Source of the DNA: Acidobacteriota bacterium
GTDB taxonomy: Bacteria; Acidobacteriota; Terriglobia; 20CM-2-55-15
Assembly (NCBI GenBank): GCA_022821145.1
Contig: JAJEEE010000085.1
Location: 1 to 56,795 of the forward strand
Direction: 5' to 3'
DNA length: 56,795 nucleotides
Position 1 is the stretch's first letter, and the number at the start of each line of letters is the position of its first letter. Positions 21,706 to 48,299 of the stretch are shown here, piece after piece. The position numbers and the translations under genes were made by a program. The notes beneath the pieces were generated by a model. The model did not search any database. It had not been told where the DNA came from and saw only the letters and a program-made list of their open reading frames with translations.

Positions 21706-22818
21706 ATGAAACGAACTCCGATACTCGCGACACTCGTGCTGACGATCGCGCCGTCGCTGCCGGCCCTGGCCCAGTCCGACCCTACGGCGGGACGGTCCCA
21801 CTTCCTGCCCCATATCGCCGACGGGGGCGGCTGGCAATCCACGCTGATCGTGACCAATGTCTCCGATGCCGCCGGCATGTGCACGCTCGAAGTGAATGGC
21901 GGCCTGACGCTGGACCGGTTCCAGGACCCGGGCGACGACGTGACCGTGACCGGTTCGACGGCAACGTTCGATCTGTCCGCGACGGGAGGTTACCTGGTGT
22001 GGTCAACCCGGAACGTATCGGCAACGGTCAACAGTTACGCCATCCTCGACTGCGAGGCCGACGTCACGGCGCAGATCACTTTCGCATTCTTCAGCGGTTC
22101 GGACAGGCCGGAGGGAATCGCCACCGTGTTCAGTTCGACGCCCGGCAGGGAATTCCAAGTTCCGGTCCTGAATGCAACGGGCACCGTCGGGTTCGCCATC
22201 GCCAACGATTCGGACGCCGACGCAAACTGCAACATCGTCCTCGAGGACCCACAACGGAACGAAGTGGCCAGACTCATAGAGATGGAGATGGTGGAGTCGA
22301 AGACCAACAAGGCGGTGTTGCTCAACGACGAAAAGACAACTGAGATTCCGGGAACGTTCGAGATGGGCTCAGCAACAGTGTCCTGCGATCAGCAGGTGGC
22401 CGTCATCGGACTGCATTTCGAGCTGGGGGGGGAAACCGGGATCCTCACCTTCAACACGCTGCCGCCGGCCGTGCTCTCCGCCGGGGAAGCGACGGGCCCC
22501 GCCGACATGTACACGCCGCTGGAAGGACTGACCGTGGCGCACGGACAGGTGTCGCTCGGCGACTTCGCGCTGACGTTCTGCCTCGATGTCCTGGCCCCGG
22601 GGCTTTCCCCTCCCGGCAGCGGCGTTACCTACACGGTCCACACCTCCAAGTGGCAACGGCGCGACGACGCGAACGCTCCGTGGACTGACGTCGAAGGTCA
22701 AACGTATGAAGGCCGGGTATGCCCCTACTCGCCGACCGAGCCCGGGCAGTATCGCCTGGTCGGGGACCTGACCGTCCGCCGCATGAACTCCAGCGAGAAC
22801 TGGTTCACCGTGGAGTGA
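21706..22818 (+). CDS. Secreted protein with one HIADG module
   Basis: 370 residues, exported (signal MKRTPILATLVLTIAPSLPA, cleaved after LAQ). It holds a single copy of a 220-residue module found in five proteins of this window: FLPHIADGGGWQSTLIVTNV, GYLVWSTRN, GIATVFSS, FQVPVLNATGTVGFAIAND, AVIGLHFEL, TFNTLPPAV. A C-terminal domain of about 110 residues (HTSKWQRRDD, GQYRLVGDLTVRRMNSSENW) is homologous to the C-terminus of the protease at 25832-31005. Conserved Cys pairs suggest disulfides. The role is unknown; a surface or adhesive function is possible. GAGGAA lies before ATG 21706. The regulator gene 22865 follows 46 bp downstream and may be co-transcribed. Confidence 0.82.
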   Translation: MKRTPILATLVLTIAPSLPALAQSDPTAGRSHFLPHIADGGGWQSTLIVTNVSDAAGMCTLEVNGGLTLDRFQDPGDDVTVTGSTATFDLSATGGYLVWSTRNVSATVNSYAILDCEADVTAQITFAFFSGSDRPEGIATVFSSTPGREFQVPVLNATGTVGFAIANDSDADANCNIVLEDPQRNEVARLIEMEMVESKTNKAVLLNDEKTTEIPGTFEMGSATVSCDQQVAVIGLHFELGGETGILTFNTLPPAVLSAGEATGPADMYTPLEGLTVAHGQVSLGDFALTFCLDVLAPGLSPPGSGVTYTVHTSKWQRRDDANAPWTDVEGQTYEGRVCPYSPTEPGQYRLVGDLTVRRMNSSENWFTVE

Positions 22819-22864
22819 CGGGGGCCCGCGGCCGACCCGCTCGTATCCGCGTGACCGACAGATT

Positions 22865-25594
22865 GTGAACTCCGGACGAGAACGCGGCAGCGAGGCCGTC
22901 CGGTCCGATCCGGGGCCGGACGACCATGGCGCCGCCCCGCAAGCGTTCGCCTGGTTGCTCGGCCAGAAGATCGCCGTGCCGGAGCGGGTGGCGGGGTATG
23001 TCCATCGCGCCGAGCTCGTGAACGCCGCGATGCCGACGCGCCGCAGGCTGACCGTGCTGAAGGCGTCCGGCGGTTTCGGCAAGACCACGCTGCTCGCGGA
23101 ATGCTGCCGCGCGCTCCGCGAGCGAGGCGTGCCCACGGCCTGGGTCTCGTTGGACGAGCGGGACGAGCCGGCCGTCCTGGACGCCTACATCGCCTTTGCC
23201 TGCCAAAGCGCCGGTCTGGATCTGCACGACGTCACGGACTCCGACGTGGCCGGCGACGGGCCGGAGAGGCGCATCGGGGTGGTCGTGCGCCGGATCCAGG
23301 CGTCCGGGAAGCCGTTCGTGATCGCCTTCGACGAGTTGGAGCGGCTGGAGAATCCCGACTCGACGTCGCTGCTGGAGTTCCTGCTCGAGCGCGGCCCGTC
23401 CAACCTGCACCTGGCGGTGGCGTGCCGCCGAATCCCCGACGGGCTGAACGTCGCCGGCGCCGTGCTCGACGGCCGTGCGCGGGTCGTGACGACGGAGGAA
23501 CTGAGGTTCTCGACGTTCCACGTCGCGGAGTTTTTCGACCGGAAACTGTCGCGCGACGCGCTGGCCGCGGAGATGGAGAGCTCGCTCGGATGGCCGTTCG
23601 CCTTGCGCATCTCCAGGAACCGAACCGGGCGCGGCGGCGCCGGTTCCGACCGCGCCGCTCCGGACATCGTCGAGAACTGGATCGAGTCGCGTTTGTTCGC
23701 CAACCTCGACGGCGAAGACCGGGACTTCCTCCTCGACATCGCGTTGCTCGACTGGATGGACGCGCCGCTGCTGGACGCGGTGTTCGAACGCCGCGACTCG
23801 TTGCGCCGGCTGCGTTCGATGCGCGTGCTCGTCGGGCTGCTGGAGCCTGTCCCCGGCGGCTTGGACGATCGGTGGCGGCTCCATCCGCTGTTGCGCGAGC
23901 ACTGCGTCGAGCGGCGTTTTCGCGAGAACCCGCGGCGGTTCCGCGCCATCCACCGCCGGATCGCGGGCGCGCTGGACGGACGCGGCGAGCCGGCGCCGGC
24001 CATGCGTCACGCCGTCGAGGGCGGCGACGGTTCGCTGGCCGGCGACATCCTGGAACGGGCCGGCGGCGCGCTCCTGTGGATACTCCAGGGGATGGTGCAG
24101 CTCCAGGCCGCCGACCGGCATCTGAGCGAGGACGTCGTGTCGACGCGTCCCCGGCTGGCGCTGGCGCGGTGCGTGGTGCGGGTCATGTCGGGCCGCGTGG
24201 AGGAAGCTCGACGGCGCTACCGCGAAGTGCGCGCGCGGTACTCGATCCAGCCGGAAGAGGCCTCCGACTTGTTCGTGGACGACTGCATCGCGCGCGGCGC
24301 CCTGACGCTCTACGGGGCCGAACCGCTCGGTTCGATCTGGGCGCGAACGCTCGACCGGGACTTGACGCGGCTGGCGGAATCGAAGCCGGACGGTTCCCTG
24401 GCGCGAGGATTCGCCGCACACGGACTGTGCGTCCTCTACCAGTTGCGGGCCGAGTTCGACGCCGCGCTCCGTATTGTCGAGGCATCGCAACGCCTGCAGT
24501 CGCAGAGCCGGTACATCGTCATGCAACAGGCCATGATCCTGGGTCAGGTGAGCATGGCCCGCGGCCGCGTCGAGGACGCCGAGTCGCACTATGGCAAGGC
24601 CCAGCGAATCGCGCGCCGGAGCTTCGTGCTCGATCCCGTGCCCACGGCCGGCGCCGAACTCATGCTGCGGGAGCTTCGCCTGGAGTGCGACCGCGTGTCG
24701 CCGCAGGCCGGGTTCCAGCGTGTTCCGGTCGCGCTGATGAAGCATGGCATGCCCTTCTCGGGCATCGCCGCCGCTTGCGCCGTGCTGATCGAGCACAGCC
24801 TGCGAGGCGGACGCATCGGCGAGGCGCTCGCCAAGTCGGAAGAATTGCGGGACTACACGCGCGGGGCCGGGTTGACCGCGCTCGCACGGTACGTGGCCGC
24901 GCTTCGCGTCTCCGTGCTGGTGATCGCCGGACGGACCCGGGACGCCGAACGCGTCTGGCGGATGGAAGAACTGCCCGAGGACGCCCAGGGCTGTGTCGAC
25001 CTCCACGGGCAAGGCTGGCGTGAAATGGAGGCCCTGTCGTGCGCGCGCCTGCGCTGGCTGGCCGCGACCGGGCGATTTCCGGAAGGCCGGGACCTGGCCC
25101 GCCGATTGCGCGAAGCGGCCGTCGACCGGGATCTCAAGCGGACGCTCATGCGCGCCACCGTGTTGTCGATCGTCCTGGAGCAACGCGCCGGGGAACCGGA
25201 AGCGGCCGCGGCGTACCTGGAGAGATTCCTGGAATCGTTCGCGGAGACTCCCTATGCCTGGCCTCTGGTCCAGGAGCGCGCGGACTGCCGGCCGACCCTC
25301 GAAGCGTTCATCGAGCAGCGCCCCGACTCGCCGCATCGCGAGAACGCGTTCCGGCTTCTGGCCGCGGCGCGCCGCATAGACGAGGTGCGCCCGGGTGTTC
25401 TGAGCCGGCGCGAGCGCACGGTCCTGAAGTTGTTGGACGGCCGGGGAGACAAGCAGCTCGCCGCCGAGCTCGGACTCACGACGCACGGCGTGCGCTATCA
25501 CCTGCGGAAGATCTTCAACAAGCTCGGCGTGAAATCCCGGGCTCACGCCGTGCGCCGCGCCCGCGAACTGGGCATGATCCCGGACGATTCCTGA
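22865..25594 (+). CDS. MalT-like STAND-ATPase LuxR-family regulator
   Basis: 909 residues. An N-terminal NTPase domain carries Walker A ASGGFGKTT (about residue 70) and Walker B PFVIAFDELE, with a following winged-helix-like region (RWRLHPLLREHC). A long helical, TPR-like sensor follows (about residues 400-830). The C-terminus is a LuxR HTH: LSRRERTVLKLLDGRGDKQL, AAELGLTTHGVRYHLRKIFN, then KLGVKSRAHAV. Such proteins bind ATP and an inducer, oligomerise and activate transcription. Size and order match the MalT/LAL class. GTG 22865 is the start. It lies between two genes of the secreted-module family, so it is a candidate regulator of that family; the inducer is unknown. Confidence 0.92.
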   Translation: MNSGRERGSEAVRSDPGPDDHGAAPQAFAWLLGQKIAVPERVAGYVHRAELVNAAMPTRRRLTVLKASGGFGKTTLLAECCRALRERGVPTAWVSLDERDEPAVLDAYIAFACQSAGLDLHDVTDSDVAGDGPERRIGVVVRRIQASGKPFVIAFDELERLENPDSTSLLEFLLERGPSNLHLAVACRRIPDGLNVAGAVLDGRARVVTTEELRFSTFHVAEFFDRKLSRDALAAEMESSLGWPFALRISRNRTGRGGAGSDRAAPDIVENWIESRLFANLDGEDRDFLLDIALLDWMDAPLLDAVFERRDSLRRLRSMRVLVGLLEPVPGGLDDRWRLHPLLREHCVERRFRENPRRFRAIHRRIAGALDGRGEPAPAMRHAVEGGDGSLAGDILERAGGALLWILQGMVQLQAADRHLSEDVVSTRPRLALARCVVRVMSGRVEEARRRYREVRARYSIQPEEASDLFVDDCIARGALTLYGAEPLGSIWARTLDRDLTRLAESKPDGSLARGFAAHGLCVLYQLRAEFDAALRIVEASQRLQSQSRYIVMQQAMILGQVSMARGRVEDAESHYGKAQRIARRSFVLDPVPTAGAELMLRELRLECDRVSPQAGFQRVPVALMKHGMPFSGIAAACAVLIEHSLRGGRIGEALAKSEELRDYTRGAGLTALARYVAALRVSVLVIAGRTRDAERVWRMEELPEDAQGCVDLHGQGWREMEALSCARLRWLAATGRFPEGRDLARRLREAAVDRDLKRTLMRATVLSIVLEQRAGEPEAAAAYLERFLESFAETPYAWPLVQERADCRPTLEAFIEQRPDSPHRENAFRLLAAARRIDEVRPGVLSRRERTVLKLLDGRGDKQLAAELGLTTHGVRYHLRKIFNKLGVKSRAHAVRRARELGMIPDDS

Positions 25595-25831: not shown

Positions 25832-28800
25832 ATGACGCGTCCCGTTCCGCATCCGTCACGATTGTCGATTGTCCCGCTTCTCCTGACGCTGGCCGCGCTC
25901 GCTCCGTCGGCCCCGGCGCAGAGGGTCGAGCGGCTGGAGCCGTCACCGGGCCCGGCGTCGCAAGCGCAGCCCGTGGAGGCGGCGGCCCGGCCGCCGAGCC
26001 TGGGACTGGGTCTGCCCGCGCCCCGCGTGGCCGCGTTGCCGCCGTTGGGGCCGGACGATGATCCGTTTCCCCCGGCGCGGGCGGGCGTCCCGCCCGTGAT
26101 CGGCGTCCACCGTTCGCTGCCGTCCGGATCCCTCGCCCTGGACTCGTCGGGCGCGCGCACGCGGGTCGACGGCGCGTGGGAGCCGATTCCCGGCGGGCGT
26201 CTCTGGCGCCTGGGGATCGCGTCTCCCGGCGCCCGCGCGATGCGAGTCCACTTCCGGGACTTCGCCGTCGGGGACGGCCAAGTCTGGCTGTACTCGGCCG
26301 ATGGGCAGGTCCTCGCGCCGTACACCGGCCGGGGCGTGTACGGCGACGGGGAATTCTGGAGCGACGTCGTTTTCGGCGACAGCGTCACGATCGAGTACCT
26401 GCCGGATCCGGCCGCGGCCGGCGACGCCGTGCCGTTCCGGATCGTCGAGATCAGTCACGTCCGGGACGATGCGTTCGGAGCCGTGGACAAGGCCGGCCTC
26501 GATCGGGCTTCGGTCGCCGCGGCGGAAGCTCGGGCGGGGGACGGCGCGGAGGTCAAGCCGCGCGCCGGGCCGATCGACGTCGTCGTGGAAACGCCGGCGG
26601 CGGCGGGGACGGACGCGAAGGCGGCCACGCCGCTCTCGCCCGGGAGCGCCGTCACCTTCAGCCTGGGACCGGTGGACAACCCGACGCTCTTCTCCGGGGA
26701 CTACTCCTATCGACTGGAGGTTCCCGACGGCGCCACCCGCGTCACCGTCACGCTGGAATCCGACGATCCCGGCGTCGATACGGATCTGCATGTCCGCCAC
26801 GGCGAGGACAACGCCGTGGAGGGCGGGAGGATCGTGTCGGACCATTCGTCCACCGGACTCACCGGCAACGAGGAGATCGTCATCACCGCGGAGTCCGATC
26901 CGCCGCTCCGCGCCGGGACGTATTTCATTTCGGTTTCCCTGTTCGATACGGGTGTCGAGGCCGAAGTCACGCTCTCGGCGACGGTGGAACGCGACGACAC
27001 GCCGGACGACTCGATCGGCGGCGGCCCGCTGACGTCCGGCCAGCCGGCCGCGTTCCGCCTGGGGCCGGTGGACGATCCGACGCTCTTCACCGGGGATCGC
27101 TCTTTCCGAATCGAGGTTCCGTCCGCCGCCGAGCGGGTCGTTTTCCGGCTCCGTTCCGTCGATCCCGACATCGACGTGGACCTGTACGTCCGATACGGCC
27201 AGGACAACGCGGAGCAGATCGGGAGACGGGTGTATGACCACGCGTCGCTGGGATTGACGGGAGACGAACGCATCGGCGTCACGCGGCGATCCGACCCGCC
27301 GCTTCGCGCCGGGACGTACTTCGTCTCGATCCGCCTCTACGACACGGACGTGGTGGCCGAGGGCAACCTCACGGCGACGGTGGAAACCGACGCCGAGGAC
27401 CCCCACCCCGACGCGGCCTGTTACCCGGAGTGGTCGAACTCGGCGGCCGGGGTCGCGCGCATCCTGTTCGAGAACGCCCAGGGCGGAACCAGCGTGTGCT
27501 CGGGTACGCTGCTCAACAACAGCCGGGAGGACCGTACTCCCTATTTCCTGACCGCCGCCCACTGCGTGGGCTCCGAGGCGGAGGCGCGGAGCGTCACGGC
27601 GTTCTGGAACTACCAGGCGCCCACGTGCAACGCCGATCCGCCGGCGCTGGACAGCGTCGAGCGGACCGTGGGGGCGAGTCTGCTGTCGACCCTGGGCGGC
27701 GGCGACTCGGATACGGACGGCGACATGACGCTGCTGCGCCTGGTGGGCGCCGTGCCGGACAACGTCGTTTTCCAGGGATGGGACGCCAATCCCCAACCCG
27801 CGGGCACGGAGGTCGCGGGCATACATCATCCCGACAACGACGAGTGGGGCAAATTCAAGCGAATCTCCTTCGGTCAACTCACCTCCGATGCGACTTTCCA
27901 CGGGATCTCCACCGATAACTACGCCATCGTCTCGTGGCATCCGGAACAGGGCTACACGGAGCCGGGCTCGTCCGGATCGGCCCTCTTCAGCAGTCCCGGA
28001 ACGGTCGTGGGGGCGTTGAGCTTCGGCGACATCGTCGACGAGGACACCCAAGGCCCGATTCGTGACGCCTACACGCACTTTTCCGTCTTCTATCCCCACA
28101 TCTCGGAGTTCATCGATCCGCAGGACGCCGCGCCCGGTTCGTTCTCGATCACGGACCTGGGAGGGTGGTCCGTCGCGAGCCGCGGGGATGCCGAGACGCT
28201 GAGAACGGGATACGGCCGCATCCGCGCGGGCGAGGATTCGACCACGCCGTCGGGGGTCGCGATCTTCCAGTACCGGAACGGAGAAGGGGTGCTGATTTCC
28301 GAAGCCGGAGTCCCGGCCGCCGAGCCGGTCTCCGACGGACGGATCTTCGCCGAGGTGAACGGGCCCCTCAACACGGGACTGGCCATGGCCAATCCCAACG
28401 ACGCGCCGGCGACCATCCACTTCTACTTCACCGACACGGAGGGCCGGCGTTTCGCCGAAGGCAGCTACGTTCTGGACGCTCATGCGCAGATTGCGAAACA
28501 CCTGAACGAGGCGCCGTTCAACAGTGGCGACGGGATATTGGGAACCTTCACGTTCACGGCGTCGGCGCCCATCGCCGTCATCGCCTTGCGGACGTCGACC
28601 GTCCAGGCCGGCGAGTTCGTGATGACCACGCTTCCGGTGGCGCGCCTGGCCGCCGCTTCGAACCCGTCCGTTCCCGGCGCGGCCGATCGAGGGACGGTCT
28701 ATTTCCCCCATTTCGCCGATGGCGCCGGATGGGCGACCGAGGTCGTCCTGGTGAACCCGACGGATCGGACGATCACGGGAACGGTCGAGTTCCTGGGGCC

Positions 28801-31005
28801 GGGCAGCCGTACGGCGGCCGGCGCGCCGGTCGTCCTGACGCTGGACGACGGGTCGGCGGGGTCGGAGTTCGACTACGCCGTCGCTCCCGGCAGCTTCCGG
28901 AGACTCACGACCGCGAACCGACTGGGCGACTTGAAGTCCGGCTCGGTCCGCCGACGCCCCGCGACGGAAGCGCGGCGCCCTCCGGTCTGGTGATCTTCTC
29001 CTACGCGCCGGCCGGGAAGACGCTGGCCGAGGCCGGCGTGCCCATCACGCCGCAAGGCCGGGCGTTTCGCGTCCCCGTCGACGCCCGCGGAACGCCGAAC
29101 GAGCCTGGTTCGATTCGCGCCGGTTTCGCCGTCACCAACACGGCGGACGACGTGTTCAACACGGTGACGCTGGAGGTGACGCACCATGACGGAACGCCGG
29201 CGGCGCCGCCGGCCGTCATCACGCTGCCGCCGTCGGGCCAGACCGCCCGGATGCTGGACGAACTGATGACGCTCCCGGCGGACTTCTCCGGCCTGCTCCG
29301 GGTGAGCGCCGCCTTCGACGTCTCGGTCATTGCCTTGAGGTTCCGCATCAACGCGCTCGGCGAGTTGAAGGCGACGACCACCACGCCGTCGAACGAGGCG
29401 GAGGATGCGATCTCCGAGGACCGCTTCTTCGCCCACCTGGCCGACTCCGAGGGCTGGACGACCGAGTTCATCCTCTACAGCGGGACCGCCGGCCAGGCCG
29501 CGTCGGGAACCCTGAGCTTCTTCGACACCGCCGGGCAGCCGCTGGATCTGGCCGGGCCGCCCGTGTCGATGCCGCCGCCCCCGGCCGGCTTCGCGCCGGC
29601 GGACCAGGCGGCGTTCGACAGCGTCTTCGTCGGCAAGCAGATCGTGCAGGACGCCTTCAACTACCGCCTGGTCTTCATCGGGCCGGGCCGCGTCCGTGAA
29701 ATCGATGGCGGCGAATCCTCGGAGGGAAACAGCGGGTACGTCCGCACGGGGCCCGATACCGGAACGCTGACGTACACCTACGACGCAACGGGAAACGACC
29801 CCGCTCTCGAGCGGTCGGAAATGCGGATGACGTTCACGTCCCCCACGACGGGCTCGTTCGTCTACACCTACACCGAGAGCGGGTCGGCGCCGCTGAGGCT
29901 CGACGGGAGCTTCGAGTTGGTGGACGCGGACTCCGCGGGGAGCTGCACGAACGATCTGGGAACGATCACCGGCACGGTGAGCCGCAGCGGTTCCTGGGAC
30001 GGCAGTTGCCCCTCGGCGCACTACCCGAACGGCGAGTATGCGCGGTACTACACCTTCACCCTGGGCCAGCAAGCCCGGGTGACGATCGATTTGACGTCAC
30101 CGTCGGTGGACACGTGGCTGGCTCTGCGGAACGGCGCGGGGATGGGCACGGGCCTCATCGAGTCCGACAACGACGGCGGGTCCGGCGCCAACGCCCGGAT
30201 CGCCCGCACGTTGGCGGCCGGCACGTACACGATCGAGGCCACAACGCTTCGCGGCGGCGTGACCGGGCCGTTCACGCTGACCGTGGACGTGTCCACCGGC
30301 GGGACGCAAGCCCCGGACCTGATCGTCGAGCGGGCATCCGTGGACGACGGTTCTCCCGACGCCGGCGCATCGTTCACCCTGTCGGCAACGGTGCGCAACC
30401 GCGGCGGCGGACAGTCTCCCGCAACGACGCTCGGCTACTACCGGTCGGCGAACGCCACGATTTCCTCAAGCGATACCCAGGTCGGGACAGACGGCGTGGC
30501 GGGGCTGGCCGCGGGCGCGTCCAGCGCCGAGTCCATCGACTTGACCGCTCCATCACAGGCCGGAACGTATTACTACGGCGCCTGCGTCGATTCCGTAACC
30601 GGCGAGTCCGATACCGGAAACAATTGTTCCTCCGGCGTTCGCGTCACGGTCTCCGACAGCGGAGGCGGGGGAAGCGACGACTTCACGCCGCTCACGAGTT
30701 TCACGATCGGCAACGACGGAACCGTGACGCTGCGGATGGGGATCCTCACCAACGTCGCAGGCCCGGGACGGTGCGTCACGGTGGGCGCCATCACCGTAAA
30801 CGGCCAGCGGTACGAAATTCACTGGACCGCGTGGCAACGGAACACGGGTTCGGGTTGGACCGAGATAGCGGGAACGCGGAAGACCGGCCAGGTTTGCGGT
30901 TACGATCTGTCCTCGGCCGGTTCGGGCCGGTACCGGGCGGTCGGCGACTTGACGATCGCCGGAACCCGCGGCCGCTACAGGAGCGCCAACGAAGTTTCGA
31001 AGTGA
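25832..31005 (+). CDS. Giant secreted serine protease (lysyl-endopeptidase-like) with PPC, HIADG-type and CARDB domains; frameshifted
   Basis: About 1,724 residues if one frame break is repaired. Start ATG 25832 (AGGA upstream) gives a signal peptide ending APAQR. An N-terminal prodomain of lysyl-endopeptidase type precedes two PPC domains (about 270-385 and 395-520). The trypsin-like domain has His577 (TAAHC), Asp631 (DTDGDMTLLRL) and Ser714 (PGSSGSALF). Beta modules follow, including YFPHFADGAGWATEVVLVN and FAHLADSEGWTTEF, then a CARDB domain (APDLIVERASVDDGSP) and a C-terminal domain shared with 21706-22818. The frame shifts at about 28949-28957, after DLKSGSV; the first frame ends at 28993 and the second continues TPRDGSAAPSGLVIFSY. 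If the break is real, the protease part could still be made alone. Confidence 0.85.
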
Positions 31006-31047
31006 GGCGAGCGGGCGCGCGAGCGGCCCGTAGGGAAACCGACGCCC

Positions 31048-31099: not shown

Positions 31100-34000
31100 C
31101 TAGAAGTCGATGCCCCAGGTGTAGTTGAGGCGGGTGTAGTAGTACGCGCCGTTGAAGCCGAACGGCGAGAACTGGCCGTACCGGTTGCCGACCGTCAAGG
31201 CCCCGTAGCCGTTGACGTCCGGGTAGGTGTTGAACACGTTCTCGCCGCCGAGCGCCAGCGTGACGGTCTCGCTGAGCCGGAGGCCCAGCTCGACGTCGAC
31301 CAGCGCCTTGCCGCCGTAGGCCGGGTAGGCGGTCGAGGACGATATCACCGGCAGGCCCGTCCCGGCCAAGTCGGACGCGCTCAGGTCGGCGGCGTTGCGC
31401 CCGTCCTCGCTGTCCCAGAACTGGCCGTAGAAGCTCAGCCGGCCCATCAGGGTCCAGCGGCCGGCGTCGTGGTTGGCGGTGACGTTCCACCGCGTGTTGG
31501 GCAGTCCGCGTTCCAGCGTGTTGATGCGGAAGTCGTCGATCACCGACGTCTCGACGTCCTTCACCTGCGTGTCGGTGTAGTTGAACACCGCGCTCAGCGA
31601 CGTGGCGCCCAGGGCCAGCGTCGAGATCACGTCGACGCCCTGGCTGGTGGTCGAGAAGTCGTTCAGGAAGAACCGGAACACCGGGAAGTTGCGCGCCTCG
31701 GGGATGCCTTCCGCCAGCAGCGTCAGGATCTCGTCCTCGCTCAACTCGATCTCCTGCGACAGCGCCACCCGGTCCTTGATGTCGATCCGGAAGAAGTCGG
31801 CGGTGAAGGTGAACGGACCGTCCTCCACCACGAGGCCGCCGCTCCAGTTGATGGAGGTCTCGGGCTGGAGCTGCGCGCCGCCCCGCGCCACGGCCACGGC
31901 CGAGGTGGCCGGGACGACGCCGTTGTTGGTCAACTGCCCGCCGATGAAGGCGGTGGTCACGTTGAACGCGTTCTGCTGCCCCGGCGTCGGCGCCCGGAAA
32001 CCGCTGCTGACCGCGCCGCGCACGGACACCTGGTCGGAGATGATGCCGCGGAAGGTCACCTTGCCGTTGACCGTCGAGCCGAAGTCGTCGAAGCGCTCCA
32101 CGCGGACGGCCGTGCCGAGCGTCCAGTACCCCTGCGGGTTCTCGAACTCGAAGTCGGCGTACCAGGCGAAGTTCGAGCGGTCCCATTCCCCGGCGGTCGT
32201 GTCGGCGCGGTAGCCGTTGAAGCCGTTCGACCCCGAGCTGAAGCCCTGCGCGGCGTAGGGACCGATCTCCCACGACACCGGGTCGCCGGCGCCGATGGTG
32301 AACCGCTCCCGCCGCCACTCCACGCCGCTGGCGACGTGGACGAACTCGTTGACGCGGTAGGTGGTGTCGAAGTTGAAGTTGAGGTCCTGCTGCCGGTAGG
32401 TCCCGGGCTCGAACGACGTCGGCGTGTCGTAGCCGACCGAGGCGTTCACGGTGTCGAAGATGAACTGGTCGACCTCGCTGCTGCCGATGTTGATGCTGGC
32501 GTCCCAGGTGAAGCCGCCGGTCGTGAAGCCGCGCACGCCGCTGACCCACGAATAGTCCTTGTAGTCGCCGCCGAACTGCGGCGTGAACCCGCCGGGGAAC
32601 CGGCTGTAGAGCGTGAAGCAGTTGGGATCGGCCTCGACCGCCCGCAACGCCGCCGCGTCGGGCGCGTTGTCGACGACGGGGATGGTCGCGCAGCCGCCCG
32701 CGGACACGTCGCCGGTCCGGGCCCATACCCGGTCGCCGACCAGCAGCGACGCGACGCCCGCGGTGCCCGGCATGCTGACGTCCTGGCCGCTCAGATCGTA
32801 GACGACCCTGTCCCTGTCGTCGTCGTCCGTGGGATTCGGAAAGTTTGTGATCCCGCCGTCGGCGTTGTAGACGTTCAGGCCCGTTTCGGGATGGAGCCTG
32901 TAGCCCCGGAAGACCCCGCCCCGCGTGTGCGGGTTGCGGAAGTAGAACCCGCCGGTCACCGTGCGCTTGGCCAGGTTGCTGTGGCCGTAGAACTGCAGGT
33001 TCTCGTTGATCTGGTAGCCGAAGTTGGCGAACAGCTTCACGTCGTCGTCCAACCGGGCCGAGCCCCACACCTGCGCGGGGTTGCGCAGGTTGCTGTTGCC
33101 GGCGCCGATGATGCCGATCGCGTCGTTGCGCTGAATCGAGCGGTTGGTCGGGTTGGAGTCGCCGTACTCGGCGCTGAGGTTGACGAACCCGTTCTCGCCC
33201 CAGGGAAGCCCGACGTTGCCGGCGACCGTGACGGACCGGCCGCGGCCGGAGATGCCGTTGCACGAGTGCTGGATGTCGCCGATGACGCCGGCGCCGCAGG
33301 TGGACGCATCGCCGATGTTCTCGTTCAGATGGGCGCCCGAGCGGAACTCGACGCTGCCGCCCGACCGCGCGTTCTTCAACTCGAAGTTCATGACGCCGGC
33401 GATGGCGTCGGACCCGTACTGCGCCGCGGCGCCGTCGCGCAGCACCTCGGCCTGGCGGATGGCGATGGAGGGGATGACCGAGATGTCGGGCCCCTGCGAG
33501 CCGTCGGCGATGCCGTTGCCCAGCCAGGTGATGACCGCCGCCCGGTGCCGGCGCTTCCCGTTCACGAGGACCAGGGTGTGGTCGGGCGCCAGGTTGCGCA
33601 GGTTGGCCGGACGGACGATGGTGGCCGCGTCGCTGATCGGCTGGATGTTGATGTTGAACGAGGGCACCACGGTCCGGAGCTGGTTGGCCAGGTCGGTCGT
33701 CCCCTGGGCGACGAAGTCCTGGGTGGGGATCACGTCGACCGGGACCGGCGACTCGGTCACCGACCGGGGCTCGGCGCGGGTGCCGACCACGATGTTGGTG
33801 GTCAGCGCGCCCAGCTCGAGCGCGAAGTCCTGGGTGGCCACGCCGCCCGCGGCCAGGGCCACGCCCGGCGCGACGCCGGTCTCGAATCCGGGCATCGTCA
33901 CCGACAGCGTGTAGTTGCCGGCCGGCAGCGTCAGGGTGTAATCGCCGACGCCGCCGGTCAGCGCCGTCGTGTCCTCACCGGTGACGTCGTTGGTGGCCGT

Positions 34001-34138: not shown

Positions 34139-34325
34139 GCGAACTTCTCCGTAGTTGTGCGCGGCAGCAAGCGCTTGTTTTGAATCGGTTATGTGCGAGA
34201 GTGAGAATGACCCATCCATAGGAATCACCCAACATCATAAGCCAACGCCGATAGGCCATCAAGGAACAATCGCGGCGCGGCGGGCCGACGGGGGCGGCCG
34301 GCTCGTGGGCAGGCGCCGGCGCCGC

Positions 34326-37001: not shown

Positions 37002-37053
37002 CGGACAGTTCCTCATCACCACCACCGATCCGAACGCCGAGCGCCCTGTGCGC

Positions 37054-40000
37054 CTACCGGCTCCAATCCGCGGGGTCGGGGAGCCCGCGGCTGGTCGTCG
37101 CTTCCATGCCCGGTTCCAGGGGCAACGCGAACGCCGCCGTGCCCGGGGCCGCCCGGGACGGGCGGTCGCGCAGGATGCCGCGCACCTGTCCCGTCGCCGA
37201 ATTGCGCAGGATCGTCACGGGCCGGTCGGTGTTCCCGTCCAGCGTCGCGAAGCCGCCGGGTCCCATGAGCGTGACGCCGGCCAGATCGTCGGCCCAACCC
37301 GGGTCGACGGGAACCGCGAAGGCGAACGACGACTGCCCGTCGCCGTCGTCCACCTTCGGCATCTCGAACGCCAGCGAGAAGAGATCCGCGCCGTCGGCCG
37401 TCCGGCCGACGAGTCTGTAATCGCCCGTGGATGTCGGCAACGACGCCGGCGCGTCGACCACGAAGGCGGGCTCCAGGAACGGCGCCCCGCCCGCGTCCAC
37501 GCCGCCCCACAACAGCAGCGAGCGCCCCGGGGCGACGGATCGCGACGCTCCGGCGTCGACGGATCGCGACGCTCCGGCGTCGACGGATTCCGACGCTCCA
37601 GCGTCGACGGATTCCGACGCTCCGGCGTCGACGGCCCGCGACTCCTCGGCGGCAAAGGTAAACAATATCCCGCGCCAGCCGATGGTCGCGTCGTAGATCC
37701 GGAAACCCAGCGCATTCGAAAAATGGTAATCGCTGATCCAGTGGGGGCGGCGGCAGAAGGACATCAAGTCCGGCGTCGCCGGCGAGACCAGGCGGCCGCC
37801 GTCGCGGAAATCGTACCCCCAGACGCCGGTGGAGCCGTCGTCGTTGGGGAACATGCGGTCCAGACTCACATCGGCGCGGCACGGCGCGTGCTGGAGACTG
37901 AAGTTGTGGCCCAGCTCGTGCGCGATCACGAACGGATTCGGCGTCACGAAACTCGTCTTGAAGCGCTGGTAGGCCACGCCCGCGGCGCCGCCGGTGACCG
38001 CGCCCGCGATCGTCCCCATGTAATGCGTGTCCGCGCCCTCCATCGCGTGAATCATCGTCGTCTCTCTCAGGAGCGTATGGGCGTTGGCGGTGTCCACCGT
38101 CACCGGTTCGTGCGCCTTCACTTCGAGTTCCCCGATCGGCAGCAATGCGCGCGCGTCCTCGAGGAGCTCGTGGCCCTCTGGATCGGCGGCCATGGCCTCG
38201 ACCAGCTCCACGATCGACCTGTCCGGAGCGGATCTCCGGACGAACGGAATCATCGTCAGATCGAAGCCGGGGGCCGTCCGGACGTGGACGGGCAATCGGC
38301 CGCTCTCCGGGATCCGCCGCGTCAGCTCCAGTTCCGGGTCCAAAGTCTGATCGGGATCGACAATGGCCACCAGCTCCAGGCCCGGCTGCACGACGTCCGC
38401 CGGCACGCGGGCGTTCACGGACCCTTCCAGCGATCCCTCGTCCACCTCGGCCGGGATCGGCGCGGAACCGGCCGGGATGTCCATGGAATGCACCTCGAGG
38501 CCGTCGAGGTAGAACCGGACCCATACCGGCGGAAGCGTCGCGCCGCCAGCGTCCGGCGCCGTCACGAACACCCGCAGCAGAGCTTCCTCGCCCGCTATGA
38601 GCGACACCGGGAACCGGCGCGACTGCGCGGCCTGTGTCAGGTACACCGGCGGCGGGTCGCCGCAGGCCGGGAGCCTTTGTTTCTGGATTCCGGAAAGCCA
38701 ATTCCGAAAGCCGGCGTCCGAAGGCGCGCACAAGCCGGTATCCGTGGTCAGAAGCTCCTGAATTCGAATCGCGCCGGCCAACTCGACGGGCAACGCGCCA
38801 GACATGCGCGCGTTGCCGCTGACCTTCAGAATCTCAAGGTTCTCCAGACCGCCGAGTTCCGGCGGCACATTCCCGGTCAGGTCATTGTCGTCGAGGTAAA
38901 TCCACCGCAGGTTGGGCGCGCTTCCCAGCTCCTGCGGAATCGGCCCCGTCAGATCGTTGCCGGTGAGGTACAGGTAGTGCAAGAGCGGCAACGGTCCCAG
39001 TTCCGGCGGAATCGGCCCCGTCAGACGGTTCCCGCGCAGGTCGAGGTCGACAACGCGTGAGAGCCCACCCAGTTCCGGCGGGATGCGTCCGGTCAACCGA
39101 TTGAAGGGCAGGTACAGGGACTTCAATACACTCAGGCGCCCCAGCTCGGCCGGAATCGGCCCCGTCAGATCGTTGTTTCCGAGCTCCACAGTCCTCAGAT
39201 TGGTGAGCGCGCCCAACTCCGGCGGAATCGGCCCCGTCAAACCGTTGTGTTGCAGGAACAGGAGCTCGACGTCGGTCAGCGCACCCAGCTCCGGCGGAAT
39301 CGGTCCGGTCAGCTTGTTGAAGCGGAGGGACAGTTTCTTCAACCGGGTGAGCGCACCCAGCTCCGGCGGAATCGGTCCCGTCATTTGGCCCGGGATTCCC
39401 AAAAATCCACCCGGGCCGCCGGAAAGGTCCAGAAGCGTCAAGCGTGTCAGGTTTCCCAGCTCGGGCGGGATGGAACCGGACAGGTAATTGTTGAACAGAT
39501 CCAGCTCCGTCAAGTGGATCAGCCCGGCCAGCTCACGCGGAACGGGCACTCTCAAGTTGTTGTTGTCGAGTTTCAGCCCCGTCACGCGACCCTCGTCGTC
39601 GACCCTCACTCCGTGCCACGTCGAGAGGGGGCGGTCCGTCAACCAGTTCTGGTTTATGCGCCAGTTCTCGCCGTCGGTCGCTTCGTACAACACCCTCAGC
39701 ACGTCCCGGGCCGACGCCTCCACGGCTACCGTGACCGTCGTCGTGGCGGTGCGGCCATCCGCCCCGACGACGGTGATCCGGTACGTGGTCGTGACCCCCG
39801 GAGAGACCTCCCGCGTTCCGGACGTGGACACGGACCCGATGTCCGGCGTGATCGTGGCGCTGACCGCGTCCGTCGAAGACCAGTCCAGCGTCGCGGCCCC
39901 TCCCGCCTCGATCGCGTCGCGCGACACGGTCAGCGTCACCGTCGGTGGTGGAAGATCGCCGCCCGAGATGGAATCGACCACGGCCGGCGGCAGGGTGTTG

Positions 40001-41436
40001 AACGTGGCGATCTGCCCGTCCGGCGCCAGCTCGAAGTGCAAGCCGATGGCGGCCACCGTCCGGTCGCAGCCCACGCGCGCCTTTCCGCCCACGAAATCTT
40101 CCGGAATCTCGACGACCGCGTTGAGCAACCGCGACACATTCGTCTTCGCCGGTACGGCGATGGCGACGTTGCCCACGCGAACCCTCGCCTGATCGTCCAG
40201 CACGATGCGGCACGTGGCGTCGTCCGGGGTGTCGTTGGCGATCGCGAAACCCACCGTGGCGGCCGGCGTCAGGACCGGAAGCTGAAAGAACCGATCGGCC
40301 TGGGAACTGAAGACCGTCGCCATGCCCGTGGGCCTCTCCCCCTCCCCGGCCCATGCGAAAACGACCTGCGCCACGACCGGCGCCGAACAATCCAGCGTCG
40401 CGTAGCCGGAAGCCGGCGCTCCCTCGGCCCGCGTGCCCCACACGAGGTAACCGCCCGTACGCCCCAGCTCGAACGCGGCCGTCGACCTCGACGCCTCGAT
40501 CCCCTCCGCCGCCTGGAACCGGTCCGCCGTCAGCCCCCGCAGCTCCAGCGCGCACCGGCTGTCGGACCCCTCCACGTTCGTCACGATCAGGGACGATCGC
40601 CATCCCCCGCCGTCGGCGATGTGCGGCAGGATGTGCTGACGCTTCGCCTGTTCGTTGGAACCGAACAGAAACGTATCCAGGAGCGCCGGCGGCAGCGTGT
40701 TGAACGTGACGATCGCCCCGTCCGGCTCCAGCTCGAAATGAAGCCCCATCATCGCGACCTGACGGTTGCACGACACCGTCGCCGATCCGCCGACGAAGCC
40801 TTCCGGGATCGGGATGGCCATGTGCAGCATCCGCGCCCGGTTGGTCTTCGACGGCGCCGCAACCGACGCCTCGCCCAGGTTCGTCCGAAGCGGGTCCTCG
40901 AGGACGATGTCGCACTCCGCCTCGAAGTCGCTGTCGTTCGCAATGGCGAACCCCAGAGTCCCCGCCGCCGTCAACACCGGGAACTGGAACTCCCGCCCCT
41001 TCTGCGCGCTGAACACCGTGGCGCTCCCCGACGGACGCTCCCCGTCCCCGAGCCACGCGAACACCACCTGCGCAACCACGGCCGCGTTGCAATCGACGGT
41101 CGCGTATCCCGACGCCAACGCCGCGGCGTTCCGGCTGTCCCAGACCAGGCTGCCGCCGCGGCCCGCCAGCTCGAACGTCGCCATGGACCCGGACGCCGTC
41201 ACGCCGTCGATGGCCTCGAACCGGTCCACGCCCAGCCCGTGCAGTCGCAGCGTGCAGAAAGCGGCCGATTCGGCGACGTTGGTCACCAGCACGGACGAGC
41301 GCCACCCGTCCCCGTCGGCGACGTGCGGCAGGATGTGCGAATGCTTCGCCTGATCGTCGGACTGCGCCGACACCGGCAGGGCCCACAGGAGGGCCGCAAG
41401 AACAACGGAGACTCTTCGGAGGAGTTCCACCACCAC
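37054..41436 (-). CDS. Secreted LRR zinc metalloprotease with two HIADG modules
   Basis: 1,460 residues. GTG start (three consecutive GTGs from 41436, AAAGGACC upstream) and signal peptide ending PVSAQ. Two HIADG modules (about 30-255 and 265-495), an Ig-like domain (505-575) and plant-type LRRs (about 620-880) precede a beta-rich region and a metalloprotease domain with HELGHNFSLQH (zinc ligands His1173, His1177, His1183; Glu1174 catalytic) and a downstream DLMSFCRRP that may serve as the Met-turn of metzincins. After four 8-residue VDAGAS(R/E)S repeats comes a C-terminal beta domain. The fusion of LRR recognition and a metzincin suggests a targeted extracellular protease. It is probably co-transcribed with the LRR protein downstream. 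Confidence 0.9.
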   Translation of the reverse strand: MVVELLRRVSVVLAALLWALPVSAQSDDQAKHSHILPHVADGDGWRSSVLVTNVAESAAFCTLRLHGLGVDRFEAIDGVTASGSMATFELAGRGGSLVWDSRNAAALASGYATVDCNAAVVAQVVFAWLGDGERPSGSATVFSAQKGREFQFPVLTAAGTLGFAIANDSDFEAECDIVLEDPLRTNLGEASVAAPSKTNRARMLHMAIPIPEGFVGGSATVSCNRQVAMMGLHFELEPDGAIVTFNTLPPALLDTFLFGSNEQAKRQHILPHIADGGGWRSSLIVTNVEGSDSRCALELRGLTADRFQAAEGIEASRSTAAFELGRTGGYLVWGTRAEGAPASGYATLDCSAPVVAQVVFAWAGEGERPTGMATVFSSQADRFFQLPVLTPAATVGFAIANDTPDDATCRIVLDDQARVRVGNVAIAVPAKTNVSRLLNAVVEIPEDFVGGKARVGCDRTVAAIGLHFELAPDGQIATFNTLPPAVVDSISGGDLPPPTVTLTVSRDAIEAGGAATLDWSSTDAVSATITPDIGSVSTSGTREVSPGVTTTYRITVVGADGRTATTTVTVAVEASARDVLRVLYEATDGENWRINQNWLTDRPLSTWHGVRVDDEGRVTGLKLDNNNLRVPVPRELAGLIHLTELDLFNNYLSGSIPPELGNLTRLTLLDLSGGPGGFLGIPGQMTGPIPPELGALTRLKKLSLRFNKLTGPIPPELGALTDVELLFLQHNGLTGPIPPELGALTNLRTVELGNNDLTGPIPAELGRLSVLKSLYLPFNRLTGRIPPELGGLSRVVDLDLRGNRLTGPIPPELGPLPLLHYLYLTGNDLTGPIPQELGSAPNLRWIYLDDNDLTGNVPPELGGLENLEILKVSGNARMSGALPVELAGAIRIQELLTTDTGLCAPSDAGFRNWLSGIQKQRLPACGDPPPVYLTQAAQSRRFPVSLIAGEEALLRVFVTAPDAGGATLPPVWVRFYLDGLEVHSMDIPAGSAPIPAEVDEGSLEGSVNARVPADVVQPGLELVAIVDPDQTLDPELELTRRIPESGRLPVHVRTAPGFDLTMIPFVRRSAPDRSIVELVEAMAADPEGHELLEDARALLPIGELEVKAHEPVTVDTANAHTLLRETTMIHAMEGADTHYMGTIAGAVTGGAAGVAYQRFKTSFVTPNPFVIAHELGHNFSLQHAPCRADVSLDRMFPNDDGSTGVWGYDFRDGGRLVSPATPDLMSFCRRPHWISDYHFSNALGFRIYDATIGWRGILFTFAAEESRAVDAGASESVDAGASESVDAGASRSVDAGASRSVAPGRSLLLWGGVDAGGAPFLEPAFVVDAPASLPTSTGDYRLVGRTADGADLFSLAFEMPKVDDGDGQSSFAFAVPVDPGWADDLAGVTLMGPGGFATLDGNTDRPVTILRNSATGQVRGILRDRPSRAAPGTAAFALPLEPGMEATTSRGLPDPADWSR
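37534..37629 (-). repeat. Four tandem 24-bp coding repeats in the metalloprotease
   Basis: Four units of GACGGATCGCGACGCTCCGG plus CGTC (plus strand; units 3-4 have ATTCC for ATCGC), followed by a partial unit. They encode VDAGAS(R/E)S on the minus strand. As a whole-codon repeat, unit loss or gain keeps the frame, so length polymorphism in a linker is expected. Confidence 0.85.
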
Positions 41437-41524
41437 CGGTCCTTTCTATATTCGCTACCCCCAGATTACCCGCATCGGGGACGGCGAAACGAAAATTCCA
41501 GGTAAGAACGCGGCCGGCCGGTCT

Positions 41525-44437: not shown

Positions 44438-44447
44438 GTCCTAATAG

Positions 44448-44540: not shown

Positions 44541-44689
44541 TGGGGACCGCCGGCCACGGGAGTCGCTTGAATCTTGTGTCCGGGCCGGGTGTCCGGGATC
44601 GGATGTCGAAGCCCGGAGCGGGGTCGCCGGGAGACGCCGCGGGCGGCGCACCGTGATCCCGCTCGACCGATGCCGCCGATCGCGCCACC

Positions 44690-44719
44690 TTGTCCGTACC
44701 GCGAACCGAGGGCTATCAT
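44690..44719 (+). promoter_or_regulatory. Promoter of the subtilase gene
   Basis: TTGTCC (44690-44695), an 18-bp spacer and TATCAT (44714-44719). The ATG at 44730 follows 10 nt later, implying a very short or absent leader and no Shine-Dalgarno. Confidence 0.5.
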
Positions 44720-44729
44720 CCCCAAACCC

Positions 44730-47700
44730 ATGCCCGAACATCGCCGCCTCCCCCGGCCCCTGCTCCTGCTTTCCCTCGTCCCCCTCTCCGCCTGGGCCCA
44801 GCAACCCCCCTTACCCGAATCCACCCTCCTCCAGATCCAAACCCACCTGGCCGCCAAGTCCTCCCGAACCGCAACCCAACGCAAGGTCAGCTCCCAACTC
44901 CTGGAACCCCCGGACGCCGCCTCCCCGGACTCCTCCATCGCCCGGGCCGTCGAACCCGTCCGGGTCGACATCCGCGCCACCGTCACCGCAACCCTCCTCG
45001 ACCGCATCGTCGAGCTGGGCGGGGAGGTCGTCAACAGCGTCCCCGAGTACGACGCCGTCCGCGCGCGCCTGCCCGCCGCCGCCGTGGAGCCGCTGGCCGC
45101 GCTCGAGGAGGTCCGCTTCATCCGCCCGGCCGAGCAGGCCGTCACGCGCCAGGCGCTCCGGACCGCGGCTTTCGTCGACGACATCGCGAGACGCGCGGTG
45201 GACGCCACCGAGGGCGACGCGGCGCACCGGGCCGACGCGGCGCGCCGGACCCACGGCGTGGACGGCACGGGCATCGGCATCGGCGTCGTCTCCGACGGCG
45301 TCGCGACGCTCGCGGCCCGGCAGGCGACCGGCGACGTCGCCTACCGCGTCACCGTCCTTCCCGGACAGGCGGGCGGCGCGTTCGACTTGCGCTGCGGCGG
45401 CCGGAGCTCGGGCGACGAGGGGACGGCCATGCTGGAGATCGTCCACGACCTGGCGCCGGGCGCCGAGCTCTACTTCGCCGACGGCGGCGGCGGGCGCGCG
45501 CAGATGGCCCGGAACATCGAGGACCTGTGCCGGGCCGGCGCCGACGTCATCGTCGACGACATCGGGTACCTTGGGGCGTCGGCCTTCCAGGACGACGTCA
45601 TCGCGCGCGCCATCGGCGCGGCCACCGCCGAGGGCTGCTTCCACTTCACGTCGGCCGGCAACGGCGGGAACCTGAACGACGGCACGTCCAGCGTCTGGGA
45701 AGGCGACTTCGACGCGGGCGGGTCGATCGCCGTGAACGGCGAAGTGGTCGGCAGGATCCACGATTTTGGCGGCGGGGCGGTCCGGAACGGGATCGAGGCG
45801 GAGACGACGAGCCCGTTCTTCCTGCAATGGTCCGACGCCGACGGGGCGTCGGCCAACGACTACGACCTGTTCATCGTGGACGCGGACGACAACGTGCTCG
45901 CCGCCTCGACCAACACGCAGGACGGCACGCAGGACCCGATCGAGTACGTCCCCGGCGCCTGCTCGGGCGAGTACGCCGACGCCCGCGTGCTCGTCGTCCA
46001 GACCTCGGGCGCCGCGGACCGCTACCTGCGCCTCGACTACGGGCGCGGGGCGCTGGAGCACGCGACGGCGGGCAAGATCTTCGGACACGCGGCGGCGGCC
46101 GACGCGGTGTCCGTGGCCGCCGTGAGGGCGCCCTCGACCGGCGCCTTCCAGGGCACGGAGTCCGTCGAGCGGTTCAGCTCGGACGGGCCGCGCCGGGTCT
46201 TCTACGAGGCCGACGGCGCGGCCGTCACGGCGGGGAACGTCTCGTCCACGGGCGGCGCGGTGCGGCACAAGCCGGACCTGGCCGCCGCCGACGGCGTCGC
46301 GACCTCCACGCCCGGGTTCTCGACGTTCTACGGCACGTCGGCGGCGGCGCCGCACGCGGCGGCCATCGCGGCGTTGATGCTGGAAGCGGCCGGCGGCCCG
46401 GGGAACGTCACGCTCTCGGCGCTGCGCGCGGGGATGACGGGCGGCGCCCTGGACATCGAAGCCTCCGGCGTGGACCGCGATTCCGGGGCCGGCATCGCGA
46501 TGGCGCCCGGCGCGGTGGACGCGGTGGACGTCCCCGCGGCGAATCGCAACCGGGCGCCCACGGCCGCCGGGACGCTGACGGCGCCGGAGATGACCGCCGG
46601 CGGCGCGCCGGCGACGATCGAACTGTCGGGCGCTTTCGACGATCCGGACAACGACACGCTGAGCTACACGGCGTTGTCGACGAATCCCGGCGTGGCGGAG
46701 GCCGTCGCGACGGGGTCGAAGCTGCGGCTGACGCCCAGGGCGGGCGGCGTCGTGGACGTGACGGTGCGCGCCGTCGACGGCGACGGCCTGGGCGTGACGC
46801 GCTCCCTGTCGGTCACCGTGGCGGGGACGCCGCCGAATACCGGAGGCGGGGGCGGGCCCGCGGCGCCGCGGGCCGGCGCGATCCTGGACTTCGCGCACTT
46901 CGCCGACGGGGACGGCTACACGTCGGAGATCGTGCTGGTGAACGTGGGCGACGAACCCATCGAGCCCGTCGTGTATTTCCACGATACGGACGGGGCGCCG
47001 GCGGCGGTCGTGGACGTCGACGACACCCTGGCCCGGCGGGACGACGGCGGCCTCGAGCGCGCCGCCGCCCTCGCGCCGCTCCGGGAGTGGCGCATCGCCA
47101 CCCGCGGCGGGGACGCCCTCACCGCCGGGTCGGTCCAGGTGGTTTCCGACGGCCCCGTCGGCGGGATGCTGCGCATCGCGCATCCCGACTTCGGCCAGGC
47201 CGTCGTGGGACCCGGCCCCGCGCTCTCCGACGCCGTCTTCCCGGCCCGGCGCCGCGAAGGCGGCGTCACGACGGGCGTCGCGCTCCGCAACCTGGAATCG
47301 GCGGCCGGGACCATCGGATGCGAGCTGCTCGCGGCCGGCGAGACGCTGGCGTCCGCGGACTTCGAGCTGGCCGCGAACGGTCAGACGTCGTGGACCCTGG
47401 ACGGCGCGTTCCCGGCGGCCGACACCGCGGTCTTCGACGGGACGGTGCGCTGCCGGTTCTCCGGGCGCCGGCGGTTCACGGCCATGGCCCTGGAGCTGGA
47501 CCCCGGCGCGCGGGTCTTCACCGCCGTGCCCGTCTCGCCGGTCGACCGCGGCGGCGGGGCCGCGGAGATGGGCTTCGCGCACTTCGCCAACGGCGACGCG
47601 ATGATGTCCGAGCTGGCGTTCGTCAACCTGGAAACCCGCCCCGGCGGGCGGTCGCACAGCCCCTTCGAGCGGCCCGCGCCGCCCAGCCGGCCCCGGATCC

Positions 47701-48299
47701 GGTTCCTCGATCCCGACGGCGCGCCTATCGCCGCGGAGTCGCTCGTGGACGTCGAGGGCGCGCTGCAGGTCGCCGGCGACGGCGCGCTGACGACGCGGGA
47801 CCCGATGGCGCCGCTGGACGTCGTCAGGGTCCCGACCCACCGCCGGGGCGCGCTGGCGACCGGGTCGGTCAGCGTGGTCGCGGACGGCCCCGTCGGCGGG
47901 ATGCTGCGCTTCGACCTGCCCGGCGTGGGCCAGGCCGTAACCGCGCCGGCGTCCCCCCTCAGCGGCGCCATCATGCCGGCGCGGCGGCGGGAAGGCGGCG
48001 TCACCACCGGCATCGCCATCCACAACCCGGAGCCCGCCGCCGGCCTGGTGCGCTGCGAGCTGATGCGCGACGGGATCCTCCAGGACACCGCCAGCACGCC
48101 GCTCGCCGCCGGCGGGCAGACGTCGTGGACGATCGATCGGGCGTTCGCCGGGGCCGACACGTCCGACTTCGACGGGTGGGTGCGTTGCACGGCGGCCGAA
48201 GGCGGCCGGTTCACGGCCGTCGCCCTGGAGATGGATCCCGGCAACCGCGTCTTCACCGCGCTGCCGGTGATGCCGGTGGGCGCGGCGACGCGGGATTAG
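44730..48299 (+). CDS. Secreted S8-like serine peptidase with two HIADG-type modules
   Basis: 1,189 residues. Signal peptide (PRPLLLLSLVPLSAWAQQ), a propeptide-like segment to about 170, then a subtilase-fold domain: Asp189 (GVVSDGV) and Ser537 (FYGTSAAAPHAAAIA). The usual HGT motif is replaced by DEGT (Asp229-Glu230), so the canonical His is missing; EIVHD (Glu236, Asp240) lies just after it. A cadherin-like Ig domain (about 610-700) and two HIADG-type modules follow (FAHFADGDGYTSEIVLVN about 720, FAHFANGDAMMSELAFVN about 950), each with RREGGVTTG(V/I)A. A partial copy lies at 49387-49488. The first 60 codons are unusually C-rich. Confidence 0.85.
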   Translation: MPEHRRLPRPLLLLSLVPLSAWAQQPPLPESTLLQIQTHLAAKSSRTATQRKVSSQLLEPPDAASPDSSIARAVEPVRVDIRATVTATLLDRIVELGGEVVNSVPEYDAVRARLPAAAVEPLAALEEVRFIRPAEQAVTRQALRTAAFVDDIARRAVDATEGDAAHRADAARRTHGVDGTGIGIGVVSDGVATLAARQATGDVAYRVTVLPGQAGGAFDLRCGGRSSGDEGTAMLEIVHDLAPGAELYFADGGGGRAQMARNIEDLCRAGADVIVDDIGYLGASAFQDDVIARAIGAATAEGCFHFTSAGNGGNLNDGTSSVWEGDFDAGGSIAVNGEVVGRIHDFGGGAVRNGIEAETTSPFFLQWSDADGASANDYDLFIVDADDNVLAASTNTQDGTQDPIEYVPGACSGEYADARVLVVQTSGAADRYLRLDYGRGALEHATAGKIFGHAAAADAVSVAAVRAPSTGAFQGTESVERFSSDGPRRVFYEADGAAVTAGNVSSTGGAVRHKPDLAAADGVATSTPGFSTFYGTSAAAPHAAAIAALMLEAAGGPGNVTLSALRAGMTGGALDIEASGVDRDSGAGIAMAPGAVDAVDVPAANRNRAPTAAGTLTAPEMTAGGAPATIELSGAFDDPDNDTLSYTALSTNPGVAEAVATGSKLRLTPRAGGVVDVTVRAVDGDGLGVTRSLSVTVAGTPPNTGGGGGPAAPRAGAILDFAHFADGDGYTSEIVLVNVGDEPIEPVVYFHDTDGAPAAVVDVDDTLARRDDGGLERAAALAPLREWRIATRGGDALTAGSVQVVSDGPVGGMLRIAHPDFGQAVVGPGPALSDAVFPARRREGGVTTGVALRNLESAAGTIGCELLAAGETLASADFELAANGQTSWTLDGAFPAADTAVFDGTVRCRFSGRRRFTAMALELDPGARVFTAVPVSPVDRGGGAAEMGFAHFANGDAMMSELAFVNLETRPGGRSHSPFERPAPPSRPRIRFLDPDGAPIAAESLVDVEGALQVAGDGALTTRDPMAPLDVVRVPTHRRGALATGSVSVVADGPVGGMLRFDLPGVGQAVTAPASPLSGAIMPARRREGGVTTGIAIHNPEPAAGLVRCELMRDGILQDTASTPLAAGGQTSWTIDRAFAGADTSDFDGWVRCTAAEGGRFTAVALEMDPGNRVFTALPVMPVGAATRD

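Follow-up and report, generated by a model that had tools for sequence, protein, structure and literature searches.

The ASRAH superfamily was named by de Souza, Iyer and Aravind in 2009 (PMC2739507) and includes the Anabaena sensory rhodopsin transducer (ASRT) and TM1070 of T. maritima, both of which form tetramers. Its hallmark is an Asn at the end of strand 2, and a Trp in strand 1 is well conserved. Extracellular versions occur as dyads or tetrads. The binding of sugars by ASRAH domains is a prediction, and the extracellular domains were inferred to bind surface glycans (PMC2739507).

Here, we analyze a locus of an Acidobacteriota genome in which five genes for probable exported proteins, several of them peptidases, encode copies of one homologous module. 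The module is not a new fold: with high confidence, we assign it to the ASRAH superfamily. What is new is the expansion of this family across the Acidobacteriota, its fusion to proteases and LRR proteins, and a subfamily with paired cysteines. Pfam and NCBIfam mostly miss this domain, which part of the phylum has in tens of copies per genome; our analysis names it, assigns it a fold and proposes a role that can be tested. As a small superfamily of predicted sugar sensors is thereby extended to secreted proteases, the question of what extracellular ASRAH domains bind becomes directly testable.

The module and its five genes

The window (the whole stretch of 56,795 nucleotides analyzed here, contig JAJEEE010000085.1, or C84) belongs to a 4.18-Mb genome that is 99.3% complete. 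The closest relatives of this genome are MAGs labelled 'Acidobacteria bacterium' (JAJEDW, of the same genus, and JAJDUG) and two 'Bryobacterales' MAGs; a literature search found no paper on these MAGs. The module genes, A to E, are listed with their domains in Table 1. On the plus strand, A is followed after 46 bp by a regulator gene and then by B, while D, C (28-bp gap) and a TonB receptor gene (97-bp gap) form a run on the minus strand, and E stands alone, with a methyltransferase gene in front of it. The interval from D to E contains two or three genes for methyltransferases (41525-42274 and 42473-44437), and in the sister genome G001, too, a methyltransferase copy adjoins a D-like gene. 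The translations of A-E each begin with a hydrophobic, signal-peptide-like stretch with A-x-A-Q-like end sites and without a lipobox cysteine, from which all five proteins are probably exported.

Table 1. Features of the module locus, in window coordinates
Feature	Positions	Strand	Evidence
Gene A: signal peptide, one module, ~90-residue tail domain	21706..22818	+	
Module A_1 (Cys-containing type)	21766..22485	+	HMM i-E 1e-64; 8.8e-38 with other-genera profile; AF2 model
Tail domain of A, homologous to tail of B	22507..22779	+	BLASTP E 2e-13; E 2e-8 in second search
MalT-type LuxR regulator (AAA/STAND, TPR, GerE)	22865..25594	+	sole full-length match in genome
Gene B: PPC x2, lysyl-endopeptidase-like S1, modules, PPC, CARDB, tail domain	~25832..31005	+	
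S1 protease domain of B (Trypsin_2)	27497..28012	+	His, Asp, Ser motifs present
Module B_1 (start missing)	28115..28660	+	i-E 5.9e-42
Module B_2 (crosses frameshift)	28670..29394	+	i-E 4.3e-20 and 9e-31 for two pieces
Third-module fragment in B (B_3)	29413..29553	+	E 7.1e-8
Tail domain of B	30676..31002	+	
TonB-dependent receptor with carboxypeptidase-regulatory-like domain	31100..34228	-	
Gene C: signal peptide, two modules, PKD-like domain, LRRs	34326..37025	-	
Module C_2	35538..36236	-	i-E 1.4e-69
Module C_1	36237..36941	-	i-E 4.8e-71
Gene D: signal peptide, two modules, LRRs, M66/reprolysin-like zinc peptidase domain	37054..41436	-	
Zinc-peptidase region of D, HELGHNFSLQH	37804..38055	-	weak Pfam M66/reprolysin matches, all below cut-off
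Module D_2	39967..40659	-	i-E 9e-69
Module D_1	40672..41373	-	i-E 2.9e-71
Gene E: signal peptide, subtilase-like domain, Big_9, two modules	~44730..48299	+	
Peptidase_S8 domain of E	45426..46481	+	E 6.1e-13
Module E_1 (diverged type, without Cys pair)	46860..47549	+	i-E 1e-48; AF2 pLDDT 84.9, pTM 0.81
Module E_2	47559..48290	+	i-E 1.5e-45

A deep module HMM, iterated over fetched loci and run on 350 ORFs of the window (E <= 0.01), matches A-E and none of the other ORFs. A control profile built from 59 sequences of other genera only finds the same five genes, with E-values of 1e-18 to 1e-41 for the modules except the B_3 fragment (7e-7). A carries one copy, C, D and E two each, and B two plus the start of a third, which makes nine copies and one fragment; among the nine, B_1 lacks its start and B_2 is split by the frameshift. 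An earlier note on this DNA, made without database searches, had counted about nine modules in five exported proteins and given them a common set of fixed landmarks. The count stands, but the strings PHIADGxGW, GYLVWxTRN, GFAIAND, GLHFEL and TFNTLPP are confined to A, C and D, whose five copies comprise that of A and four others 51-55% identical to it. The copies of B and E are distant homologues of this type (hhalign probability 98%, E 1.8e-13, 199 columns), and the claim of a single homologous module is supported. The two groups also differ in placement: in A, C and D the module comes immediately after the signal peptide, but in B and E it is C-terminal to the protease. The coordinates and domain list of the earlier note are correct as well: the module is joined to an S1 protease, to LRRs, to LRRs plus a (weakly assigned) metalloprotease and to an S8 protease, and domain matches agree with a LuxR/MalT-like regulator and a TonB receptor within the block.

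Several of these genes have peculiarities of their own. The reading frame of B shifts between 28946 and 28993; the G001 copy is uninterrupted here but contains an in-frame stop at another position, so each copy of B carries one lesion, which is either real decay or an assembly error. A two-module LRR gene on another contig (L018, G000:C11, 3279-7048) also has a frameshift, and its G001 copy (L024/L087) is intact, with 1259 aa. In place of the HGT motif that usually surrounds the catalytic His, the S8 domain of E seems to have EGTAML, and a solved structure was matched by its Ser region alone; the catalytic triad of E may therefore be altered or sedolisin-like. The zinc-peptidase region of D had no sequence match in the PDB. 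Finally, A and B have in common a second, unnamed C-terminal domain of ~100 residues (FTPL...WQR...GDLTI), which, in a search of 21 genomes, turned up in their own genus and otherwise in a single genome of the class.

Fold and relationship to the ASRAH superfamily

We obtained AlphaFold models for gene A (from 13 aligned sequences) and for module E_1, one of each module type. The module part of the gene A model has mostly pLDDT 75-93, its tail being unreliable; the scores for E_1 are given in Table 1. Both models consist of two beta-sandwiches. When compared with known structures, the C-half of the gene A model matched TM1070 (1NC7) with Z 12.8 (2.9 A over 105 residues) and the ASRT entries with Z ~10, against 5.9 for the best unrelated entry. 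The C-half of E_1 matched 1NC7 with Z 13.3 (2.0 A over 103 of 116 residues), against 6.9 for the next unrelated one. The eight-stranded beta-sandwich topology of TM1070 and ASRT is thus found in the C-half of two independent models, at least 6 Z units above unrelated folds. For the N-half, the fold matches were to pilins, collagen-binding domains, CBMs and DeCLIC; at Z ~5 these are at background level, and we discarded the pilin, CBM and DeCLIC matches as evidence. Nor is the absence of ASRT among the N-half matches evidence of any kind, because each chain is reported once.

Profile comparison relates the two halves to each other. Aligned with hhalign, the N-half and C-half are homologous with 97% probability (E 4.7e-11) in an alignment of 91 sequences, and the controls remained at or below 1.6% (100 column shuffles) and at 0.6% (reversed); with 14 sequences alone the value was 13%, and the relationship became clear once 91 were used. 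Both halves match an ASRT profile drawn from Acidobacteriota genomes, the C-half at 88.7% (E 2.6e-6) and the N-half at 68% (E 4.7e-5), with all shuffled and reversed controls below 1%. In the other direction, the module HMM matches genuine ASRT proteins (E 1.7e-5). The Pfam ASRT model (PF07100) matches one protein of the family, G003:C227, just below its cut-off (E 2e-4), and at this site the module HMM also scores a C-half (142 bits). The C-half is thus placed on ASRT by sequence and model, and the N-half by sequence comparison. Taken together, the C-half fold, the homology between the halves and the ASRT profile matches point to a module in which two ASRAH-related beta-sandwiches form a dyad. 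A pair of consecutive modules would then amount to four domains, as in extracellular ASRAH versions, and module proteins mostly have two modules.

The conserved residues place the module within the superfamily but apart from its described families. The Asn that ends strand 2 is present in 94% of N-halves and 95% of C-halves, lines up with that of ASRT in the profile alignments, and in the gene A model closes strands 21-29 and 138-145. The near-invariant G, N and G positions are kept at 91-98%. At the start of strand 1, the Trp of the superfamily is found in none of 87 N-halves, which have Pro or Ala instead, although the I-A-[DE]-G that follows this position is common to the module and ASRT. 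The ligand signature of ASRT, SHEshChhN, is not kept either: position N-7 is variable and N-3 is Ala in 88% of C-halves. With the His/Cys signature absent, no ligand can be named for the module, and with both the Trp and the signature missing, we regard the module as a separate, ASRAH-related branch and place it in none of the three families described.

Acidobacteriota repeat proteins of a WYFAEG type (L123, L125) keep the Trp and give weak matches to both Pfam ASRT and the module HMM; they may represent another branch of ASRAH. A match of the deep profile to isomaltodextranase (E 4.5e-4) concerned a single protein, had no fold support above background, and was set aside.

In A, C and D, each half of the module contains two cysteines, at equivalent places. 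Cysteines at alignment columns 40 and 94 co-occur in 35 of 36 sequences (p 2e-24), and those at columns 154 and 201 in 17 of 18 (p 4e-13), by a statistic that ignores relatedness. The simplest reading is that one disulfide probably staples each domain in this subfamily, which would suit extracellular life.

Distribution, partner domains and the regulator

A survey by module HMM, as the earlier note had proposed, found the wide module family in 81 of 297 sampled Acidobacteriota genomes (56 of 167 genera); since at most about nine candidates were scored per genome, copy numbers from this survey are lower bounds. The Cys-type module, which has no significant match in Pfam or NCBIfam, is narrowly distributed, in its own genus, in one further family of the class and in the two Bryobacterales MAGs. 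The genome analyzed here has 48 module matches in ~22 genes, five of which lie in one 27-kb stretch; the ~17 others are spread over contigs C45, C11, C42, C70, C60, C74, C19, C14, C31, C33, C34, C64, C71 and C77. Partners in the window are S1 and S8 proteases, LRRs and the weakly assigned M66/reprolysin-like peptidase; elsewhere they include LRR with fn3, matrixin-type (M10) peptidases, pro-kumamolisin, cohesin, FGE-sulfatase, and NHL and BNR propellers.

The regulator matches GerE, with AAA_16 and TPR_MalT matches below cut-off, and G001, like the present genome, has a single full-length match of this type. In G001, the tail of A, the regulator, B and the TonB gene follow in the same order, and then come a methyltransferase gene and one D-like gene. 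The regulator protein is 71% identical to its G001 counterpart, and at the DNA level its stretch is 76.7% identical compared with 91.6% for the stretch from B to TonB, so the regulator diverges faster than its neighbors. The conserved order supports a unit of A, regulator and B, within one genus only. The regulator, on the same strand as A and 46 bp from it, probably controls at least A and perhaps B. The view that the five genes cluster around a MalT-type regulator holds for its adjacency to A and B and for the order kept in G001. As an account of coordination across the system, it fits poorly with the ~17 module genes elsewhere and with C, D and the TonB gene forming a separate run; in addition, no upstream word shared by A, the regulator, B, D and E rose above shuffles, in what is a weak test. 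No promoter- or terminator-like site was seen in the intergenic region between B and TonB.

Possible roles and comparison with known systems

We lean, by a small margin over even, towards a glycan-binding role in which the module works like a carbohydrate-binding module, as an accessory domain of secreted proteins. Sec-exported peptidases and LRR proteins would carry one or two dyads, and these would anchor the catalytic or recognition part to a surface bearing glycans, where nearby protein is cut or bound. Each step (that the dyads bind a ligand, that the ligand is a sugar, and that binding serves targeting) is conjectural in its own right, and the predicted fold is compatible with the targeting or adhesion role suggested in the earlier note. 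A broader proposal, which we offer tentatively as a possibility somewhat short of even, is that this unannotated, Acidobacteriota-wide family of paired ASRAH-type domains is the phylum's own CBM and has been exchanged between secreted peptidases, LRR proteins and propellers, the Cys branch being limited to a few lineages.

The main rival is that the dyads are structural, serving as spacers or oligomerization units that join catalytic or LRR parts without a specific ligand. The occurrence of dyads mostly in twos, giving four domains per chain, the tetramers of ASRT and TM1070 (PMC2739507), and the loss of the known ligand residues all fit such a role; however, pure spacers seldom keep near-invariant positions across a phylum, and the partners are very varied, so we consider it rather unlikely. 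Less probable still is that the modules bind protein ligands, of a host such as an animal or sponge or of the bacterium itself, and that the cluster is a host-interaction system of adhesins. The LRR and peptidase partners would suit adhesins, and so would the N-half resemblance to pilins and collagen-binding domains were it not at background level. The module family also occurs in many Acidobacteriota families, and to our knowledge these are not known as host-bound. A function in sorting or as a secretion signal, comparable to T9SS or PEP-CTERM tails, seems very improbable. The module does recur near the ends of exported proteins, but it follows the signal peptide in three of them and the protease in the other two, is present twice per protein, and matches no sorting-domain model of Pfam or NCBIfam; we disfavor this reading on position and copy number.

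The protease domain of B resembles Achromobacter protease I, a lysyl endopeptidase (1ARB; E 3.5e-24), with its catalytic motifs kept, although B is much larger and has PPC, CARDB and ASRAH-like parts. By analogy of working, the module may be likened to the CBMs of secreted hydrolases, which are accessory beta-sandwiches, often doubled and exchanged among catalytic partners; unlike these, it has no CBM-family sequence match above cut-off, its partners are mostly peptidases and LRRs, and its binding is putative.

DUF5719 (PF18986) is close in sequence to part of the family: 16 of 62 sampled members match (best 9.5e-9), and matches above cut-off occur in 11 of 21 near genomes. The curated cut-off is passed by cousins such as G006:C325 and G000:C64 and by no window protein, B falling below it and the Cys-type modules of A, C and D having no match. 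A literature search found no mention of DUF5719; it may correspond to the actinobacterial lipoprotein family of the 2009 ASRAH paper.

The closest comparison is with ASRAH itself (ASRT, PF07100/DUF1362; TM1070, 1NC7), with which the module has in common the fold of the C-half, the ASRT-profile match of both halves, the strand-2 Asn, and the arrangement in dyads or tetrads. It differs in the missing strand-1 Trp and SHEshChhN signature, in proteins that appear exported without a lipobox and are fused to peptidases and LRRs, and in the Cys pairs of one subfamily. The earlier description of an undescribed module does not survive this relationship to a published superfamily (PMC2739507) and the DUF5719 matches, and it should be replaced by that of an Acidobacteriota branch of the ASRAH superfamily, mostly unrecognized by Pfam.
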